A DNA stretch of 64,000 nucleotides from assembly GCF_003626635.1 (NCBI RefSeq), contig NZ_RAZT01000001.1, positions 248,001 through 312,000 on the forward strand, in the 5' to 3' direction. Shown piece after piece: positions 44,779 through 54,089 of this stretch. Made by a program: the position numbers and the translations under genes. The number at the start of each line of letters is the position of its first letter. The first letter of the stretch is position 1. Below the pieces are notes generated by a model. The model ran no database searches, was not told where the DNA came from, and was given only the letters and a program-made list of their open reading frames with translations. The stretch comes from Micromonospora musae (GTDB lineage Bacteria > Actinomycetota > Actinomycetes > Mycobacteriales > Micromonosporaceae).

Positions 44779-45405
44779 GTGAGAGTCACGCTACGGCTAC
44801 GCGCGCTGATTCCCGTACCGGACACCGGGCCGGTGACCCTCGAGGTGCCGGCGGGCCGTACGGCCGCCCTGGTGGCGCCGCCCCGCCTCGGCACCGCGGT
44901 CGCCCGCGTGCTCGCCGGGCTCGCGCCGCCCCGGGACGGGCGGATCCTGGTGGGCGAGCGGGACGTCACCGACCTACCGCCGCCACGCCGGCAGATCGGC
45001 TACGTGCCGGCCGGCGGGGCGCTGCTGCCGCAGCTGACCGTACGCCGCAACATCGAGTACGGGCAGCGCAAGCGGGAACGGGTCCGGGAGATGGCCGACG
45101 ACTGGACGGCGACCGTCGTCGAACGCCTGGAGCTGGCACCCACCCTCGCCCTGCTGCCGCACGTGCTCTCCGACGCCCAGCGGTTCCGCGTGGCGTTGGC
45201 GCGGGCCGCCGCCTGCCTGCCCGAGGTGCTCGTCATCGACCTGCCGTCCGGGCTGGCAGACGGCGGTCGCCTCGACGACCTGCTCCCCCGGCTCTCCCCG
45301 GCGGACGCGCCCGGCGTGTCCGTGCTCGTCTGCACCACCGACCCGGCCACGTTGGCGCAGATCCCCACCCGGGTACGGCTCGACCCCGAGGCGGGCCGAC
45401 GGTGA
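44779..45405 (+). CDS. Catalytically dead ABC-ATPase-like protein (pseudo-ATPase)
   Basis: 208 aa from GTG 44779 (ATG 44740 is possible; no clean ribosome binding site). The fold is that of sugar/molybdate ABC ATPases (RTAALVAPPRLGTAVARVLAGL, VTDLPPPRRQIGYVP, LTVRRNIEYG). Every catalytic element is lost: Walker A has Thr39 for Lys, the Q-loop lacks Gln (P77-A78), the signature is LSDAQ (130-134), the Walker B Glu is Leu155 (VIDLPSG) and the switch His is Thr186 (CTTDPATL). It is coupled to the solute-binding protein gene by overlapping stop and start. It cannot hydrolyse ATP by the normal route and may be a structural or regulatory partner of the permease. Confidence 0.82.
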   Translation: MRVTLRLRALIPVPDTGPVTLEVPAGRTAALVAPPRLGTAVARVLAGLAPPRDGRILVGERDVTDLPPPRRQIGYVPAGGALLPQLTVRRNIEYGQRKRERVREMADDWTATVVERLELAPTLALLPHVLSDAQRFRVALARAAACLPEVLVIDLPSGLADGGRLDDLLPRLSPADAPGVSVLVCTTDPATLAQIPTRVRLDPEAGRR

Positions 45406-46679
45406 CGGCGTCGGGGCGGACGAGCCGTCGCACGCTGCTGCGGGCCACCGCGGCCGGCGCCGCGACGATCGCGACGGGTTGCTCCGACGGTGGTCGGGCC
45501 GTGCAGGTGGCGGTGGTCTGGAGCGGCGGGGAGCTCGCGCCCTTCCGCGCCGTGGTGGCCGGGTACCACGACCCGGTGCACGTGGTCAGCGCCGGCAACG
45601 ACATCGACGCGTTCCTGCGGGCCCGGCAGCTCGCGGGCACCAGCCCCGACGTGGCGATCCTGCCCCGCCCGGGCCTGGTCACCGAGTACGCCCGGCGGGG
45701 CTGGCTCAGCCCACTGACCCCGGCGCCCGGGCACACGGTGCCCGACGGCCTCACCAGGCTGCTCCACGCTGACGGGCGGCCCTACGGCGTCTGGGTGAAG
45801 GCCGCGCACAAGTCTCTCTTCTGGTGCCTGCCCTCGGTGCTGCCGCAGCCACCGGCCACCTGGGACGAGCTGGTCGCGCTCACCCGTCGGCTCGCCACCC
45901 GGGCCCGAAGCGGCGACGGCCCGGCCCCGCTGGCGGTCGGCGCCGCCGACGGCTGGGTCCTCACCGACTGGTTCGAGAACGTGCTCGCCGACGTGGCGCC
46001 CGACGGGTACGACGCGCTCGCGGGGCCGCGGGGCGACTGGCAGGGCCGGCCGGTGCGCGACGCGTTGGACCGGCTCGCCGAGATCTGGAGCATCGACGGC
46101 GCGTTCCCCGGTGGCGGTCGCCGGGCGCTGCTCACCCAGTACGAGGAGTCGGTCATCCAGGTGGTGCACACCCGCCGGGCGGTGACGGTCTTCGAGGGTG
46201 ACTTCGCCGACGGTGTGGCCCGACGCTTCCGGCGCGGGGCGGAGGAGCCGTCGACCTTCCGCTTCCCCGGCACCCGGCCCGGCGAGGGCCCCCTCATCGT
46301 CGGTGGTGACGCCGCCGTCGCGTTCGCCGGCGCCCAGAGCGGAGTCGAGCTGGTCCGCTGGCTCACCGACGCCACCGTCTTCCGGCCCTGGCTGCGCGCG
46401 GGCGGCTACCTGTCACCGGACGTCGCCGTGCCCCTCGCCGACTACGCCGACCCGCTGCGTGAGCGACTGGCCCGGGAGATGCGTACCGCCGGAACCGTAC
46501 GGTTCGACCTCTCCGACCGCCTGCCCGGCCCGTTCACCGGCACCGACGGGGTCGGCATCTGGCGGATCATGCAGGACTTCTTCTCCGACGTGACCGACGG
46601 CGTACCGGCCGCCGAGGCGATCCGGCGGAGCACCAAGCTGCTCTCCGCGGCGGCGCGCGGCGCCGGTGGTGGCCGATGA
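45402..46679 (+). CDS. Tat lipoprotein, ABC solute-binding protein
   Basis: 425 aa. Twin-arginine and lipobox: SRRTLLRATAAGAATIATGC, with lipidation at Cys after ATG. The mature part shows the sugar-type SBP fold (GNDIDAFLRARQLAGTSPDVAI, ATWDELVALTRRLATRA, TDATVFRPWLRAGGYL). Overlaps the pseudo-ATPase gene (gtga) and the permease gene (atga). It should capture an oligosaccharide or polyol outside the membrane; ligand unknown. Confidence 0.88.
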   Translation: MTASGRTSRRTLLRATAAGAATIATGCSDGGRAVQVAVVWSGGELAPFRAVVAGYHDPVHVVSAGNDIDAFLRARQLAGTSPDVAILPRPGLVTEYARRGWLSPLTPAPGHTVPDGLTRLLHADGRPYGVWVKAAHKSLFWCLPSVLPQPPATWDELVALTRRLATRARSGDGPAPLAVGAADGWVLTDWFENVLADVAPDGYDALAGPRGDWQGRPVRDALDRLAEIWSIDGAFPGGGRRALLTQYEESVIQVVHTRRAVTVFEGDFADGVARRFRRGAEEPSTFRFPGTRPGEGPLIVGGDAAVAFAGAQSGVELVRWLTDATVFRPWLRAGGYLSPDVAVPLADYADPLRERLAREMRTAGTVRFDLSDRLPGPFTGTDGVGIWRIMQDFFSDVTDGVPAAEAIRRSTKLLSAAARGAGGGR

Positions 46680-48436
46680 GCGGGCTGCCCGTGCTCGGCG
46701 AACCGGTCGTGCTCGACGACGTCGGGCCGCCCCGCCGCGGTCGGGCGTACCCGGCGGCGCGCGCCTCCACCGCCCTGCTGCTACCCGCCGCGCTGCTCCT
46801 CGGCGGCCTGGTGCTCTGGCCGGTGCTGCGGACCCTGCACGCCAGCGTCACCAGCGACGGCCGTTGGGTCGGCGCCGCGCACTTCAAGGCCGTGCTGGCC
46901 GCGCCCGGCACCGGCGCGGTGGTCGGTCGTACAGTGCTGTGGGCGCTGCTCGTGCCGGCCGTGGTGACCGGGCTCGGTTACCTGCTCGCCGTCGCCTCCC
47001 GCCGCTCCGAGGAGGGCCGGCTGGTCCGGCTGATCCTGGTGGTGCCGACCGCGCTGCCGCTCGTGGTCACCGGCGTGACGTTCCGCCTGATGTACGACCC
47101 GGACCCGTCCCGGGGACTGGCCACCCTGGTCGCCGCGCGGCTGACCGGGCGCGGCGGCGACGACGTGCCGCAGCTGCTCGGTCCGGGCCTGGTCACCGTG
47201 GCGCTGATGTCCGCCTTCGTGTGGGCGTGGGTGGGCCTGGCGATGCTGGTGTTCCGGGCCGCCCTGGACCGGCTGCCGTCGAGCCTCGCCGACGCGGTCC
47301 GCGCGTACGGCGGAACCCGCCGGCACGTGCTCTGGGACGCGCAGTGGCGTCCGCTGCTGCTGCGTACGGTCGCGGTGGTCTTCGCCCTCGTGGCGCTCGG
47401 CACCAGCCGTACCTTCGACCTGATCCTGGTGATGGCGCCCGGGTCGGTGCGGGACGAGGCGGCGGTGCTCGCCCTGCGGGTCTGGCAGACCTCCGGCGGC
47501 ACCACCACCGGCGAGGGCGCGGCGCTCGGCGTGATCTGGCTGGCGGCGGTCGCCGCCGGCATGCTGGTGGCGGCGCTCTTCATCCGGCAGGCGTGGCCGC
47601 CCCCGCGGGCCGCCGAACCGGACCCGGTGGCGGCTCCGCCGCCACGGCTGTTCCGGCTGCTCGCCGCCGGCGCCGCCGCGGCCTGGCTGGTACCGCTCGC
47701 GGCCCTGGTGGCGACGTCGCTGCACGGGCCGGTGGACGCCGCGGCGCGCAGCTGGTGGTCGGCGCCGCCGAGCCTCGCCTCCTACCGCGAGGTGCTCACC
47801 GGTTCGGAGCTGTGGCGGTCGCTGGGCTTCACGTTGCTGCTGGCCGCCGGGGTCACCGCCACGGTGCTGGTCGTCGCGCTGCTCGCCGCGTACCCGCTGG
47901 CCGGGCTGACCGGGCCGGCCGCGCAGGTGACCGGCCTGCTGCTGATGATCGCCGTCGTCGTGCCGGTGCAGGTGATCGCCGGGCCGGTCAACGAGGTGCT
48001 CGGGGTGGCGCTCTCCTCCGGCACCGCCCGTGGTCTGGTGCTGGTGCACGTGGCGCTGGGGGTGCCGTTCGCGGTGCTGGTGCTGCGCAACGCGTTCGCG
48101 GACCTGCCGACCGGTCGGATGCGCGCCGCCCAGCTGGGTGGCCGGCACTGGTGGGGCACGCTGCGCCGGCTGGCCCGGCACTGCCGCCCGGCGATCGTCG
48201 CGGTGTCGGTGCTGGAGTTCGTGCAGGTCTGGAACGACCTGGTGGTCGGGCTGCTCTTCAGCGGCCCGGACTCGGCTCCGCTCGGGCTGTTCCTGGCCGG
48301 GCAGACTCGCGGTTTCGTGGCCAACAGCGGCGCGCTGGCGGCCGGCTCGGTGCTCGCCTCGACGCTGCCGGTGCTGCTGGTCGTGCTCGCCCGGCGGCAT
48401 CTCGTCGCCGGCCTCGTCTCCGGTGGTGTCCGGTGA
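46676..48436 (+). CDS. Fused ABC transporter permease, two MalF/MalG-like halves
   Basis: 586 aa, about 12 membrane helices. Each half carries an EAA-like coupling loop: ADAVRAYGGTRRHVLWDAQW (first) and RAAQLGGRHWWGTLRRLARH (second). CUT1 permeases are usually two separate proteins; here they are one polypeptide. ATG 46676 overlaps the binding protein's stop. The coupling helices would normally contact an ATPase such as the neighbouring pseudo-ATPase or a shared MsiK-type ATPase. Confidence 0.88.
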   Translation: MSGLPVLGEPVVLDDVGPPRRGRAYPAARASTALLLPAALLLGGLVLWPVLRTLHASVTSDGRWVGAAHFKAVLAAPGTGAVVGRTVLWALLVPAVVTGLGYLLAVASRRSEEGRLVRLILVVPTALPLVVTGVTFRLMYDPDPSRGLATLVAARLTGRGGDDVPQLLGPGLVTVALMSAFVWAWVGLAMLVFRAALDRLPSSLADAVRAYGGTRRHVLWDAQWRPLLLRTVAVVFALVALGTSRTFDLILVMAPGSVRDEAAVLALRVWQTSGGTTTGEGAALGVIWLAAVAAGMLVAALFIRQAWPPPRAAEPDPVAAPPPRLFRLLAAGAAAAWLVPLAALVATSLHGPVDAAARSWWSAPPSLASYREVLTGSELWRSLGFTLLLAAGVTATVLVVALLAAYPLAGLTGPAAQVTGLLLMIAVVVPVQVIAGPVNEVLGVALSSGTARGLVLVHVALGVPFAVLVLRNAFADLPTGRMRAAQLGGRHWWGTLRRLARHCRPAIVAVSVLEFVQVWNDLVVGLLFSGPDSAPLGLFLAGQTRGFVANSGALAAGSVLASTLPVLLVVLARRHLVAGLVSGGVR

Positions 48437-50826
48437 CCGGCCCGACCGGTCGCGAGGGCGGACGACCGCCCCGCTGGCCGTTCCTGGTGGCGGTCAGCAC
48501 GGTGGTCGGCGGCGTGATCGTCAACCTGGCCAGCAACCTCCTCTCCGAGCTGGCCGCCGGCATCCTCGGCCCGGCGAGCCTCGCCCTGGTGATCAGCGGC
48601 GGGCTCGGCTGGGTGGTGTTCGACGTACGCCGCCGCCGGGCCGGGCGGCTCGACCGGCCGGAGTCCGGGGAGGCCGTCTCGGCCCCGAGCGGCGCGCCGA
48701 CCCTGCCGCCGGAGCGGATGAACGGTTGGCCGTCGCCGGGACGAATGCCCGGTTGGGACGCCGCTGTGGACGACGTCACCGAGCTGCTCGGGCGCGAGCA
48801 GGCAGTGGCCGTACGGGGGCGGCGGGCTGTGGGCACGTCGGCGTGCGCGATCCAGGCCGCCAACCGCTGCCGCGGCGACTTTCCGGACGGGCAGTACTAC
48901 CTCGACCTGCGCCCCGGTGGGCGGCCCCGCTCGGCAAGGCAGGTGCTCACCGCGCTGGCCCGCATCCTGGGCACACCGCCGCCGACCTCCGGCCGCGCGC
49001 AGGCGCTCGCCGAAGCGGCCGACGCGCTGCGCCGGCACCTCGACGGCCGGCGGATCCTGGTGGTGCTCGACAACGTCGACCGCCCCGAGCAGGTGCGTCC
49101 GCTGCTGCCGCCGACCACCCGCACCTGCCGGCTGCTGCTCGCCGGCGGGCCGGCGCTGATCGGTCTCCAGGGTGTGGCGGAGCGCTGGATCAACGAGCCC
49201 GACGTCGACGACGCCGTCGAGATCTTCGCGGCGGGGGGCGCGGCCGCCCCCGCCGCCCGCAACCGTCGCGTCGACCCGCGCACCGACCCGCTCGTGCGGG
49301 ACATCGTGGAGATCTGCGGACGGCAACCCCGGGCGGTACGCGCGCTGGGCTACCGGGCGGCGCAGCACAGCTGGCGGCACGCGGACGTGCTCGACGCGCT
49401 GCAGCGGGCGGTACGGACACCGCCGCACCAGCGCATCGCACTCGCCCCGGCCGCCCGGCTGCTCACCGAGGCCGACGCCGCGTACCGGGCGCTCTCCGCC
49501 GAGGCCCGCCGGCTCTACCGGCTGATGTCGCTCACCCCGGCCCCGGTGGATCGGGCGACGATCGCGGCGCTGGCCGCCCGCCGCCCCGAGCAGGTGGCCA
49601 CGCTCCTGGACGAGCTGACCGCCACCGCGTTCGTCCGGGGCCGCGACGGCGACCGCTATGAGATCCGCCCGCCGCTGGCCGGGTACGCCCGGCTGCATCT
49701 GCGCGACGGTGAACCGCTCCGCCGGCGCGTCGCCGCGCAGGCCCGGCTCACCCGGCACCTGGCGAAGCACGCCGAGCGGCACGCCGCCGGCCTCGCCGCG
49801 CTCGGGTCACCGCCGGACCGGGAGTGGACGCTGCCGCTGGACGAGGACCCGTACGGCTGGTTCGACCTGCACCAGGAGCTGCTGCTGGCGGTGGTGCGGG
49901 TGCCTGCCGGCGCGGCCGAGACGCTGCCGCGCCGGGTCCGCCGCTGGTGGTTCCGGCTCGCCGTGGCGCTCTGCGGCTGGCTGGCGCACGCCGAGCGGCT
50001 CGACGAGTGGGAGCAGGTCTGCACCACGGTGCTGGCCACGCCCACCGCCGAGGACCGGCCCGAGGTCTCCGGCTGGGCACACAACGAGTTGGGCGCGCTG
50101 CACCGGCGTCGGCACGATCCGCACGGCGCCGTCGCCGTGCTGCACCTGGCGGTCACCGAGCGCGGCCGGCGGGCCACCGCCCAGGCCCGGATGAACCTCG
50201 GGATCGCCCTGCTCGACCTGGGGCAGCTCGACGACGCGGTGGACCACCTGGCCCGATCGCGGCGGCACCGCTCCGGCTCGGACCGGGCCGGACTCGCGCT
50301 GACCGACCTGGCGCTGGGCGCCGCCCGGCTGGCCCGGGGTGAGTGGGACGGCGCGCACCGCCACCTGGTCCGGGCGGCGAACACGTTCAGCGCGCTCGGC
50401 GACGCACGCGGCTACGCGGCCGCGTTGACCAACCTGGTGCTGGTGCACGCCGGCCTCGGTGAGCACCTGGACGCGGCGCAGGCGTGGCGTGCGGCGCTGC
50501 GCGAGTACGACTCGGTCAACGACCCGACCGGTCGGGCCGCGGCGCTGCTCAACGCCGGCGCTGCGCTGCTGACCGCAGCTCCGGGGCAGGCCCGTCAGGC
50601 GTACGACTGGCTGGCCGAGAGCCGCCGGCTACGCGAGGGCAGCCGGCTGACCGCCGGGCTGGGCCGCACCCTGCTCTACCTCGGCGACGCGGCGGCGGCC
50701 CTGGACGATCCGGACGAGGCCCGCCGGCACTGGGTCGACGCGGTGGGGATCTGCGAGGCGGTCGGGGACACCGCCGGTCAGACGGCCGCCGATGCCCGTC
50801 TGAACAGCCCCGTCCACGAATCCTGA
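48433..50826 (+). CDS. Membrane-anchored NB-ARC/TPR STAND-like protein with degenerate P-loop
   Basis: 797 aa. Two helices at about 15-32 and 38-63 anchor it. Residues 85-300 form an NB-ARC-like domain: P-loop position GRRAVGTS (129-136) has Thr for Lys, while Walker B ILVVLDNVD (208-216) is intact. A winged-helix-like stretch (about 320-400) and a C-terminal TPR array of about 300 residues follow (NELGALHRRRHDP, MNLGIALLDLGQLDDAVDHLA, LTNLVLVHAGLGEH). GTG 48433 overlaps the permease stop. STAND proteins normally bind ATP as sensors; the missing Lys makes classical hydrolysis doubtful. Confidence 0.82.
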   Translation: MTGPTGREGGRPPRWPFLVAVSTVVGGVIVNLASNLLSELAAGILGPASLALVISGGLGWVVFDVRRRRAGRLDRPESGEAVSAPSGAPTLPPERMNGWPSPGRMPGWDAAVDDVTELLGREQAVAVRGRRAVGTSACAIQAANRCRGDFPDGQYYLDLRPGGRPRSARQVLTALARILGTPPPTSGRAQALAEAADALRRHLDGRRILVVLDNVDRPEQVRPLLPPTTRTCRLLLAGGPALIGLQGVAERWINEPDVDDAVEIFAAGGAAAPAARNRRVDPRTDPLVRDIVEICGRQPRAVRALGYRAAQHSWRHADVLDALQRAVRTPPHQRIALAPAARLLTEADAAYRALSAEARRLYRLMSLTPAPVDRATIAALAARRPEQVATLLDELTATAFVRGRDGDRYEIRPPLAGYARLHLRDGEPLRRRVAAQARLTRHLAKHAERHAAGLAALGSPPDREWTLPLDEDPYGWFDLHQELLLAVVRVPAGAAETLPRRVRRWWFRLAVALCGWLAHAERLDEWEQVCTTVLATPTAEDRPEVSGWAHNELGALHRRRHDPHGAVAVLHLAVTERGRRATAQARMNLGIALLDLGQLDDAVDHLARSRRHRSGSDRAGLALTDLALGAARLARGEWDGAHRHLVRAANTFSALGDARGYAAALTNLVLVHAGLGEHLDAAQAWRAALREYDSVNDPTGRAAALLNAGAALLTAAPGQARQAYDWLAESRRLREGSRLTAGLGRTLLYLGDAAAALDDPDEARRHWVDAVGICEAVGDTAGQTAADARLNSPVHES

Positions 50827-50885: not shown

Positions 50886-50939
50886 CTTTCAGAGAAAGTG
50901 CTGTCTCAACACGCGCCGAGGCAACACTTTCTCTGAAAG
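50886..50939. repeat. Perfect 15-bp inverted repeat, 24-nt loop
   Basis: ctttcagagaaagtg (50886-50900) and cactttctctgaaag (50925-50939). It is AT-rich against a GC-rich pyrimidine tract (50827-50875) and lies 60 bp past the STAND gene. It could be its terminator or a dispersed palindromic element; this form recurs in Micromonospora intergenic DNA as far as I recall. Confidence 0.65.
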
Positions 50940-52013: not shown

Positions 52014-54089
52014 TCAGCAGGTGACGGTCAGGCCCGCCCAGTCGGCGCGGTCGTTGTAACCGCCGTCGCCGGCGTCACCGACCACCAGGTCGAGCACCCG
52101 GACGCCGGTCAGGTCGACGTCGACCTGGTGCACCGCGTCCCGGGTCACCACGCCGCTGTCGTACAGCACCTTGCCGTCGCCGACGACCTGGAAGGTGGCG
52201 GTGCCACCGTCCGGGCCGACGTTGTTGACCGCGTCGTCGATGCCGACGACGGCGGCGAGCCGGCCGCACTGGTCACCGACGTAGTAGCGGACCGTGGACG
52301 GGGAGGCGACACCGAGGCCGGTCGGGTAGACCTGGCCGAGCATCTTGATCGGCGATCCGCCGCCGACGCTCTGGTCGACGGTCGGGCTCATCCAGCCGCT
52401 GGTGGCGCTGATCCAGGTGTGGTGCGACAGCAGGGCCTCGCCGTCGGGCGGCACCGGCGCGACCACCAGGGTCGCGGCCGTACGCTGCCGCAGCCGGCCG
52501 TGGCCGAGCACGTCGTACGAGGTGGTGGCGGTCAGCGTGGCGGTGCCGGGGCTCGCCGTGGCCGGCAGGGTCACCGCGAAGCCGAGCGTGGCGCTGCCAC
52601 CGGGGATCAGCAGCTTCGGCGCCCGGCCGAGCGCCCGGACCTGCCAGCCGTCCGGCGTGCTCAGCGTGACCTGCGGGGTGAAGACGGGCAGCAGGCCGTC
52701 GTTGCGGACGGCGACCTGGACTGTCGCCTCATCCCCGCCGGCGAGCACCGGTGCGGTGCCCTCGGGCAGCGCGTCGCCGCCGACCCTCGTCACCTGCGGA
52801 AGCCCGGCGGTGACGTGCGGGACGCCCGGCAGGCCGTGCGCCTTCGCGACGCGGAACAGCGCCGCGCCGTGGGCGGGGACGGCCGCGCTGATGGTGCCGG
52901 CGCTCTCGGTGACCTGGTCGGTCCAGGCGTTCCTGAGGGTGAACCGGCTCCCGCTCAGGCCGACGGCCGACGCCTTCGCGGTGAGGGTCTTCGAGCTCTC
53001 GCCGCGGTTGAGCAGCAGCACGGCCCGGTCACCGTTGGCGAGGCGCTTCACCCACGTCTCGGTGGTGCCGGCGGGGCCGACGCGGACGGCCTGCACGGCC
53101 GCCGGGTCCTGGTTGATGGCGAGCGCGTCGGCGTCGGTGAGGATGTCGACGGAGGTCTGGCCGAGCTTACGGATGTCGCTGCCGACGATCAGCGGCGCGG
53201 CGGCCACCGACCAGAGCGACATCTGGGTGCGGAACTCCTCGTCGCTCATGCCGAGCTCGGGGGCGAGGTAGTCCGGGTCGTTGAAGCGGCCCGGCCCGGC
53301 GACCTCGGGGTGCCGCGCGTTCGCGTCGTAGTTGCGCAGCACGTCCTTGAACTTGATGTCGCCGACGAAGCCGACGTCGGTGTACGTCCGCCAGGACTGC
53401 GCGATCTCCGGGGCGTACGTCCACGAGTACGTGGACTGCTGCTCCTCCGGGTAGTTGCCCCAGTCGGGCGAGGTCACCGGGTTGCAGAGGTTGAAGATGA
53501 TCGGACGACCGCTGGCGTTGTTCCGCAGCGCCCGGGCGAACTCGGTGTAGGCGGTCTTCGGGTCCAGGTCGGCGGCGATGCCGCAGAGGAAGTCCACCTT
53601 GACCGCGTCGAACTCCAGGGCGGCGAAGTGGTCGGCGTCGCGCTGGTAGTAGCCGCCGCCGCTGCCGAGCCCGCACTTGCCCGGGATGTACGGCCCGGCG
53701 TCGGTGTAGATGCCGGCCCGCAGACCCTTGGAGTGGATGTAGTCGACCAGGGGCTTCAGACCGTTGGGGAAGCGGGTCCGGTCGGCTTGGAGGTCACCGG
53801 CGGCGGTGCGCGGCTCCGGGTCCTGCCAGCCGCCGTCGAGCCAGACGATGTCGTAGCCGGCCTTGGCCATGCCGCGGGCGACCAGGGCGTCGGCGACTTC
53901 GCGTACCGACTGCTCGGAGAAGTTGCCGCCGAGTCCGAAGTAGGTGTTCCAGCCCTGGTAGGGGGTGGGGCTCAGCACCTGCTGGGGTGCCGGCCGCGCG
54001 CCGGTGGCCGGGGCGGCCTGGGCGGGCGCGGGTACGACCAGCAGGCCCGCCGCGAGGGCGAGCAGGCCCGTGAGGGCGTGTCGTTTCAC
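52014..54089 (-). CDS. Secreted GH27 alpha-galactosidase with NPCBM domain
   Basis: 691 aa. Signal peptide (LTGLLALAAGLLVVPAPAQA). The GH27 barrel opens TPYQGWNTYFGLGG. The nucleophile is Asp166 (VKVDFLCG) and acid/base Asp271 (GRFNDPDYLAPE). A Greek-key C-terminal domain, a NEW3-type domain (about 450-535) and a C-terminal NPCBM module (about 555-691) with WMSPTVDQSVGGG follow. It removes terminal alpha-galactose (or arabinopyranose) from polysaccharides outside the cell. The start is ATG 54089, and the promoter carries a palindromic operator. Confidence 0.95.
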   Translation of the reverse strand: MKRHALTGLLALAAGLLVVPAPAQAAPATGARPAPQQVLSPTPYQGWNTYFGLGGNFSEQSVREVADALVARGMAKAGYDIVWLDGGWQDPEPRTAAGDLQADRTRFPNGLKPLVDYIHSKGLRAGIYTDAGPYIPGKCGLGSGGGYYQRDADHFAALEFDAVKVDFLCGIAADLDPKTAYTEFARALRNNASGRPIIFNLCNPVTSPDWGNYPEEQQSTYSWTYAPEIAQSWRTYTDVGFVGDIKFKDVLRNYDANARHPEVAGPGRFNDPDYLAPELGMSDEEFRTQMSLWSVAAAPLIVGSDIRKLGQTSVDILTDADALAINQDPAAVQAVRVGPAGTTETWVKRLANGDRAVLLLNRGESSKTLTAKASAVGLSGSRFTLRNAWTDQVTESAGTISAAVPAHGAALFRVAKAHGLPGVPHVTAGLPQVTRVGGDALPEGTAPVLAGGDEATVQVAVRNDGLLPVFTPQVTLSTPDGWQVRALGRAPKLLIPGGSATLGFAVTLPATASPGTATLTATTSYDVLGHGRLRQRTAATLVVAPVPPDGEALLSHHTWISATSGWMSPTVDQSVGGGSPIKMLGQVYPTGLGVASPSTVRYYVGDQCGRLAAVVGIDDAVNNVGPDGGTATFQVVGDGKVLYDSGVVTRDAVHQVDVDLTGVRVLDLVVGDAGDGGYNDRADWAGLTVTC

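Follow-up and report, generated by a model that had tools for sequence, protein, structure and literature searches.

A conserved actinomycete gene cassette combining a dead ABC ATPase with a dead NB-ARC/TPR protein: a possible receptor derived from a sugar importer

What defines an ATP-binding cassette (ABC) system is its ATPase, and an operon that resembles a sugar importer and encodes an ATPase devoid of its catalytic residues raises the question of what kind of system it specifies. Such an operon occurs in the genome of Micromonospora musae (7.07 Mb, 33 contigs), within a stretch of 64,000 nucleotides, hereafter the window, which covers positions 248,001 to 312,000 of contig NZ_RAZT01000001.1 (assembly GCF_003626635.1). 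The four genes, named A to D, may together form a motorless, importer-derived membrane receptor that would signal to a membrane-anchored TPR hub, a reading to which we attach slightly less than even confidence. They are arranged as follows (window coordinates):

44779-45405, plus strand: gene A, a pseudo-ABC ATPase of 208 amino acids with the nucleotide-binding-domain fold, without the C-terminal regulatory domain
45402-46679, plus strand: gene B, an extracellular sugar-type substrate-binding protein whose signal contains a twin Arg and a Cys
46676-48436, plus strand: gene C, a fused permease, the first half SugA-like and the second half SugB-like
48433-50826, plus strand: gene D, composed of a transmembrane hairpin, a dead NB-ARC, a winged-helix-like segment and a TPR superhelix

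All four reading frames are open in the window, and starts and stops overlap by 4 bp at each of the A/B, B/C and C/D junctions, as had been noticed in a previous reading of this DNA from its letters alone (the sequence-only reading).

Gene A encodes a readily recognizable ATPase domain. It belongs to the Pfam family ABC_tran (E 6.4e-14), the profile of its family matched ATPases of the MalK/CysA/SugC type in the PDB, and its AlphaFold2 model, with a mean predicted local distance difference test score (pLDDT) of 89.2, displays a confident ATPase fold for which Foldseek returned CysA (1z47) as the best match and MalK structures among the next ones. The motifs considered in A are the following:

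44872-44907, plus strand: degenerate Walker A (VAPPRLGTAVAR), without the Lys and one residue shorter
44992-45042, plus strand: pseudo-Q-loop and docking-side segment (GYVPAGGALLPQLTV), without the Gln, with L-x-P kept
45166-45180, plus strand: degenerate ABC signature LSDAQ, with Ser and Gln kept and both Gly of LSGGQ lost
45238-45243, plus strand: end of Walker B, where Asp-Leu replaces Asp-Glu and the Asp is kept

Compared with eleven intact ATPases (seven from the best-matching ATPase loci of the own genome, four from related importers), the window protein exhibits Gly at the position of the Walker A Lys, Ala at that of the Q-loop Gln, Leu at that of the catalytic Glu and Thr at that of the switch His. 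The comparison was extended to 81 cassette A proteins, namely the window, 40 loci of the genus, 16 loci of other genera obtained by a search within the family and 24 loci of the named collection described below; locus L085, in which A is partly out of frame, and L154, taken as a repeat of L095, were left out. Each of these four residues occurs in 0/81 cassette proteins and in 11/11 intact comparators. Similarly, each occurs in 0/17 members of a further set, which consists of the loci remaining from L101-L148 once 31 of the 48 had been set aside as repeats of loci already used, and thus in 0/98 A proteins overall. The Walker A Lys is replaced by Gly in 48, by Ala in 32 and by Thr in one of the 81 proteins. 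In the signature, the first Gly is never found (0/81 and 0/17) and the second rarely (3/81 and 1/17), the Ser is kept in 62 and the Gln in 65 of 81. The Walker B acid is represented by Asp in 54 and by Glu in 27 of these proteins, and the Thr that follows Walker A is retained in many copies. The losses listed in the sequence-only reading (Walker A Lys, Q-loop Gln, signature, Walker B Glu and switch His) therefore stand as given, and the intact homologues in the same operon that it proposed to look for were not encountered in any of the 98 proteins.

Another part of A is strictly conserved. The groove-side Leu and Pro located behind the Q-loop are kept in 81/81 and 17/17 proteins (98/98), and all 81 proteins of the first set have His or Gln immediately after this Pro. 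The segment F81-Y87 of MalK accommodates the coupling helix of MalF/G (PMC7658222). Since the groove-side residues are kept and the catalytic ones lost, A seems to have exchanged its chemistry for a conserved face. The ratios of non-synonymous to synonymous substitutions (dN/dS) for the window against seven orthologues lie between 0.17 and 0.26 in A, 0.18 and 0.36 in B, 0.11 and 0.26 in C, and 0.12 and 0.32 in D. Owing to its confident fold and to a dN/dS of 0.17-0.26, within the range of B, A has to be considered a maintained protein, and it is under purifying selection. The earlier proposal of A as a docking or regulatory subunit fits both the groove-side residues and the dN/dS, and may be kept at that level. 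In three loci (L095-L097), the A proteins reach about 370 amino acids or more and retain a C-terminal extension, their catalytic residues being already gone; this extension may be what is left of the regulatory domain of MalK.

Gene B belongs to the Pfam family SBP_bac_1 (E 1.8e-8), and the PDB matches of its family profile include NagB2 and LpqY, with binding proteins for chito-oligosaccharides and for trehalose among them. All 20 aligned B homologues carry the RR pair, and 19 of them show a lipobox-like match. One stretch is particularly conserved:

45927-45986, plus strand: near-invariant stretch of B (PLAVGAADGWVLTDWFENVL)

Gene C matches the Pfam family BPD_transp_1 (E 4e-11) in two stretches, and the PDB matches of its family profile, SugB (1e-28) and SugA (3e-12), cover the two halves, in agreement with the fused sugar permease proposed before. 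Its contact regions for an ATPase are altered:

47276-47359, plus strand: first EAA coupling loop (loop 1) of C, in eroded form
48104-48193, plus strand: second EAA coupling loop (loop 2) of C, likewise in eroded form, and shorter in 21 of the 23 cassettes with A found outside the Micromonosporaceae

In the window, the loops read LADAVRAYGG and MRAAQLGG. The statement of the sequence-only reading that the permease keeps both coupling loops holds for their length and for a Gly, but not for the EAA and I-x-LP residues, which have undergone erosion. Erosion of the EAA loops, to differing degrees, affects every aligned cassette C, in contrast to the canonical loops of the intact importers L157 and L160. 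Relative to loop 2 of the window, the loop in the 23 cassettes with A outside the Micromonosporaceae (L149-L153, L155, L156, L158, L159, L161-L165, L167-L173, L175 and L178) lacks seven residues in nine, three in seven and one in five, while loop 1 can still be recognised in these cassettes. In four Nocardia loci, loop 1 of C cannot be recognised and is shorter by two or three residues.

Gene D combines the architecture of a STAND protein with a predicted membrane anchor. Pfam recognizes its TPR repeats and, weakly (0.03, below the cut-off), its NB-ARC; AfsR is matched both by the NCBIfam model (4e-30, far below the model cut-off) and by the family profile against the PDB (about 6e-39). Its features are:

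48475-48651, plus strand: predicted transmembrane hairpin of D, residues 15-73, two model helices of low pLDDT, supported by hydropathy
48817-48840, plus strand: degenerate P-loop of D, which reads GRRAVGTS and has Thr in place of Lys
49063-49074, plus strand: Walker B of D, VLDN, retained
49717-50805, plus strand: TPR superhelix of D, residues 429-791, from Pfam and the model

The model of D (mean pLDDT 83.5) begins with two low-confidence helices, followed by the NB-ARC, a winged-helix-like part and the TPR superhelix, so that the STAND organization (NB-ARC/NOD, winged helix, TPR sensor) is present according to both the AfsR profile and the model. Foldseek places the STAND-TPR structure 6mfv first, with a low TM-score of 0.31 of the query; LGN-type TPR and NLR/Apaf-1 proteins come among the others. 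Hydropathy peaks occur at residues 16-34 and 36-54 of the window protein and number one to three in six other D proteins. This predicted hairpin, which was absent from the sequence-only reading, occupies the place of the SARP DNA-binding domain, for which no match was found at the N terminus, and no DNA-binding family was matched in D by Pfam or NCBIfam. Profiles of TPR proteins associated with ribosomally synthesized and post-translationally modified peptides were also hit far below their cut-offs (HaaT 2e-29, FxSxx 2e-7), which probably reflects a common domain architecture only.

The dead P-loop of D had also been recognized before, and the loss of its Lys holds beyond the window. With a pattern that also allowed Lys, the position was readable in 78 of 82 rows and gave Thr in 77, Ala in one (L049) and Lys in none, the Thr counted for L150 being spurious, since both L150 and L152 print, by eye, GPDGIGAGS with Ala at this position. 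The unread rows are L064 and L072 (frame-disrupted), L152, and L180, which lacks the P-loop. The rest of the P-loop and the LDN are mostly retained. Seven own-genome comparators chosen for GxxGxGK[ST] serve as an illustration and not as an independent control; the pattern recovered two of the seven.

The conservation of the four genes as a block constitutes the second line of evidence. Within the genus, A is matched in 64 of 151 genomes, and C orthologues (at least 73% identity) in the same 64; D is likewise matched in 64, sharing 63 of them with A and C. Genome G052, where C is split over two contigs, has no D match. In G061, only a stop-interrupted remnant of D (G061:C1:6270208-6271536) was observed, and neither A nor C was matched, which may be the vestige of a cassette lost as a whole within the genus. 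Among 44 genera sampled in the family, C was matched in 16; three of these matches cover one half at 33-38% with no D, which leaves 13 genera. The order A-B-C-D on one strand is found in 56 of the 60 loci fetched from genus and family, the exceptions being L094 (no D match, the contig stopping inside C) and L098-L100, which are not cassettes.

A wider scan with the near-invariant B motif against one genome of each of 84,980 species yielded 113 confirmed places, with Micromonospora lupini Lupac 08 among the loci, the best 80 of which form the named collection, and 68 of these 80 show the four genes in order. They include Actinoallomurus, Streptosporangium, Sphaerisporangium, Acrocarpospora and Nonomuraea, and extend over the Streptosporangiaceae, the Thermomonosporaceae and other Micromonosporaceae. 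The 12 exceptions consist of five short stretches of 5.0-8.8 kb with no D match (L116, L124, L135, L140 and L158), three intact importers (L157, L160 and L174) and four loci of Nocardia. Without the three importers, 77 loci remain, in which 4-bp overlaps occur at 50/73 A/B, 71/76 B/C and 65/69 C/D junctions. The gene order invoked in the sequence-only reading as a mark of a functional unit is therefore conserved, and the flanks differ between genera while A-B-C-D remains together. Because this order and the same residue losses are conserved in three families, chance can be excluded.

The cassette has relatives with an intact ATPase and others with no match to A. Intact ATPases beside a related binding protein were found in L157 (Thermomonospora), L160 (Allosalinactinospora), L174 (Acidimicrobiia) and L098, all without a D match; an intact A homologue inside a cassette operon was looked for and none was found. 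L157 and L160, checked in detail, possess two separate permease genes with canonical EAA loops (LEAARVDGATEW and LEAARMDGG). The first permease of each (L157, 8094-9563; L160, 7779-9128) contains a long insert between transmembrane regions, which looks extracellular.

At the other end, the four Nocardia loci (L176, L177, L179 and L180) retain B and the fused C with no match to A, and a protein with hydrophobic N-terminal segments lies 3' of C. In L180, this protein matches residues 382-738 of D (27%), and lacks the P-loop and NB-ARC. All 55 ATPase matches in the four Nocardia genomes (E <= 1e-22) fall in regions where an open stretch contains an intact Walker A. In two control genomes this search did pick up the dead A (8e-33 and 2e-34), and a more divergent dead copy could escape it. 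As Nocardia keeps B and C without A, and as the hub of L180 dispenses with the NB-ARC, the functional core would consist of B, C and the TPR part. In three of these loci (L176, L177 and L180), NfeD-like and SPFH/stomatin-like genes, assigned to their families by reading, directly precede B, at about 4.5-6.5 kb of the loci, which suggests a link with membrane microdomains.

A tree of 48 B rows, built without five Nonomuraea rows and most Micromonospora, separates Nocardia, the Streptosporangiaceae-Thermomonosporaceae, the intact importers and the Micromonosporaceae, the window protein being nearest to that of Micromonospora avicenniae (88% identity). The tree was rooted at its midpoint, and the direction from intact to stripped systems is an inference.

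Taken together, these data are compatible with the following mechanism. B, as a lipoprotein exposed outside, would capture a sugar-like ligand, presumably a sugar or a cell-wall-type oligosaccharide, and dock on C as occurs in LpqY-SugABC. C would no longer pump or transport, its cognate A being predicted unable to bind or hydrolyse ATP normally, and a ligand-driven change in C would travel through its cytoplasmic loops. A would occupy the old ATPase site on C and act as a rigid adaptor to D, the four proteins forming one complex. D, anchored by its hairpin and with its NB-ARC locked, would provide the output through the TPR superhelix, by recruiting or releasing a cytoplasmic partner. As precedents, MalT, a STAND-TPR regulator, is kept at the membrane by MalK while the maltose transporter is idle (PMC10427625), and the lipoprotein GlnH and the membrane protein GlnX control the kinase PknG (PMC9769921). 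With somewhat more reserve, we can envisage that an importer turned into an ATP-free signalling receptor by means of a dead-ATPase adaptor and a membrane-anchored dead STAND-TPR hub, and that Nocardia, left with B, the permease and the TPR hub, represents the end point.

Several observations weigh against this interpretation. A finds no match at 1e-40 in 87 of the 151 genus genomes, and in class-wide samples the window C matches in 1 of 394 and a Streptosporangium C in 2 of 345 genomes, each count including the window's own genome, so that the cassette is restricted in its occurrence and dispensable. The frame of D is disrupted in three genus genomes (L064, L071 and L072, i.e., G129, G094 and G095), by sequencing error, loss or frameshift. 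For the TPR proteins of L176, L177 and L179, the assignment relies on their position and on hydrophobic segments read at the N terminus, L180 alone giving a similarity match, and the genes flanking the cassette offer no hint of an output. The loops of C are also less altered in places: both keep their length, and often a Gly, in the Micromonosporaceae; loop 1 of the Streptosporangiaceae stays near the consensus (e.g., MARAFG...PAL); and loop 2 is one residue longer than in the window in 2 of the 23 cassettes mentioned above, both from Streptosporangium. In Nocardia, loop 2 is of unchanged length in all but one of the four loci and reads AADALHG or AADALRG, with Ala-Ala and Gly, which may be a degenerate EAA motif; the loss of both loops in this genus was accordingly rejected upon comparison with intact permeases. 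Where the loops persist, an ATPase from outside the operon might still dock on C.

The latter observation leads to the alternative that survives best, a working sugar importer that borrows an MsiK-type ATPase, in which A would be a subunit for regulation or assembly and D a regulator tied to transport. MsiK is a shared ATPase of type I sugar importers. The own genome contains numerous ABC ATPases, of which the seven closest were examined and all found intact, and the persisting loop lengths and the conserved B motif would equally suit an importer; the sharing of ATPases between type I importers is established, e.g., for MsmX (PMC7658222). Against it speak the EAA and I-x-LP residues, eroded by comparison with the sister importers, the shortening of loop 2 in nearly all cassettes with A outside the Micromonosporaceae, and the fact that a conserved dead ATPase would contend for the same groove. 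We hold this borrowing rather unlikely, and less likely than the receptor; given the state of the loops and the lack of A in Nocardia, an importer powered by MsiK is the part of the sequence-only reading that fares worst.

A scaffold or microdomain component, in which C and D would be structural and B would sense or tether a cell-wall saccharide with no switch-like signalling, is improbable. The position of the operon directly behind NfeD-like and SPFH/stomatin-like genes in three Nocardia loci, the predicted anchor and abundant TPRs of D, and the death of both nucleotide sites would agree with it, but the SPFH link is confined to Nocardia, the flanks vary in the Micromonosporaceae, and the near-invariance of the B motif points to a specific ligand. 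A shade more doubtful is the idea of altered rather than dead sites, D and perhaps A binding nucleotide without hydrolysis as an energy or nucleotide sensor. Apart from the Lys, D mostly keeps its P-loop, and also its Walker B, and the strictness of the nearly constant Lys-to-Thr substitution suggests that some function is kept; A, however, has lost most of the nucleotide contacts tested, being left with the Walker B acid and, in many copies, the signature Ser and Gln and the Thr after Walker A, and the Nocardia operon does without A, as L180 does without the NB-ARC. Finally, an importer relic decaying in Micromonospora, which the patchy presence (64/151), the D remnant of G061 and the three disrupted D frames might evoke, is hardly credible in view of dN/dS values of 0.11-0.36 in four genes, of the order and overlaps conserved across families and of the same residues lost in every sampled lineage. 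Decay restricted to one strain was likewise rejected from the aligned A proteins and the dN/dS, and a pseudogene or decaying operon from the dN/dS of the four genes and the open frames of the window.

Little can be drawn from the surroundings of the operon:

50886-50939, strand not assigned: perfect 15-bp inverted repeat directly 3' of D; the sequence of the repeat has only two copies genome-wide

This repeat possibly marks the end of transcription of the operon. Rfam searching of the operon region gave no match at gathering scores, nor did a promoter scan give any match. A large, secreted, glycoside-hydrolase-like open reading frame (52014-54089, minus strand), alpha-galactosidase-like by reading, lies near the cassette; it is matched only in L039, L040 and L042 of 62 loci compared. 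A link with sugar metabolism through the neighbours was rejected, and this open reading frame is uninformative, because the flanks in other genera consist of unrelated genes.

The cassette shares parts with several known systems. B resembles LpqY, C corresponds to SugA plus SugB in one chain and A to the domain fold of SugC/MalK, as in the type I (CUT1) importer LpqY-SugABC; in contrast, A is dead and devoid of the C-terminal regulatory domain, the permeases are fused with eroded EAA loops, and D is added. The binding protein and the two BPD_transp halves that characterize CUT1 systems are thus present, and a working ATPase subunit is found in 0/98. Both MalK and MalT have ATPase activity, and MalT also contains a domain that binds DNA. 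MalFGK2-MalT similarly brings a CUT1 ATPase subunit and an NB-ARC/TPR protein together at the membrane (PMC10427625), whereas both sites are dead here, D has its own predicted anchor and matches no DNA-binding family. AfsR-type SARP/STAND regulators match the NB-ARC, winged-helix and TPR regions of D, which differs by its membrane hairpin in place of the SARP DNA-binding domain and by the Thr of its P-loop. PknG has TPRs. The GlnH-GlnX-PknG system of Corynebacterium and Mycobacterium also couples a binding lipoprotein to a membrane protein signalling inward (PMC9769921), but GlnX, with four transmembrane segments, is receptor-like rather than a permease, the output is a kinase, and no pseudo-ATPase takes part.

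The cassette likewise shares with non-pumping ABC proteins such as SUR, CFTR and the BceAB flux sensor the use of an ABC architecture for sensing or gating. Unlike the cassette, these still bind nucleotide and have one or more functional sites.

In agreement with the sequence-only reading, which knew of no such composition, no description of it was found in the open-access literature searched, subscription journals lying mostly outside this scope. By the tests made, the cassette is neither an importer with its own working ATPase nor, for lack of the P-loop Lys in D, a working STAND ATPase, although it is built from parts of both. The series that runs from an intact importer to a dead ATPase and then to no ATPase asks what an ABC permease does without its motor. 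If the receptor interpretation is true, the conformations of a permease alone can carry a signal inward without ATPase catalysis, and the actinomycetes, a group rich in secondary metabolism, would possess sensors of nutrients or of the cell wall that belong to a class so far unrecognised.

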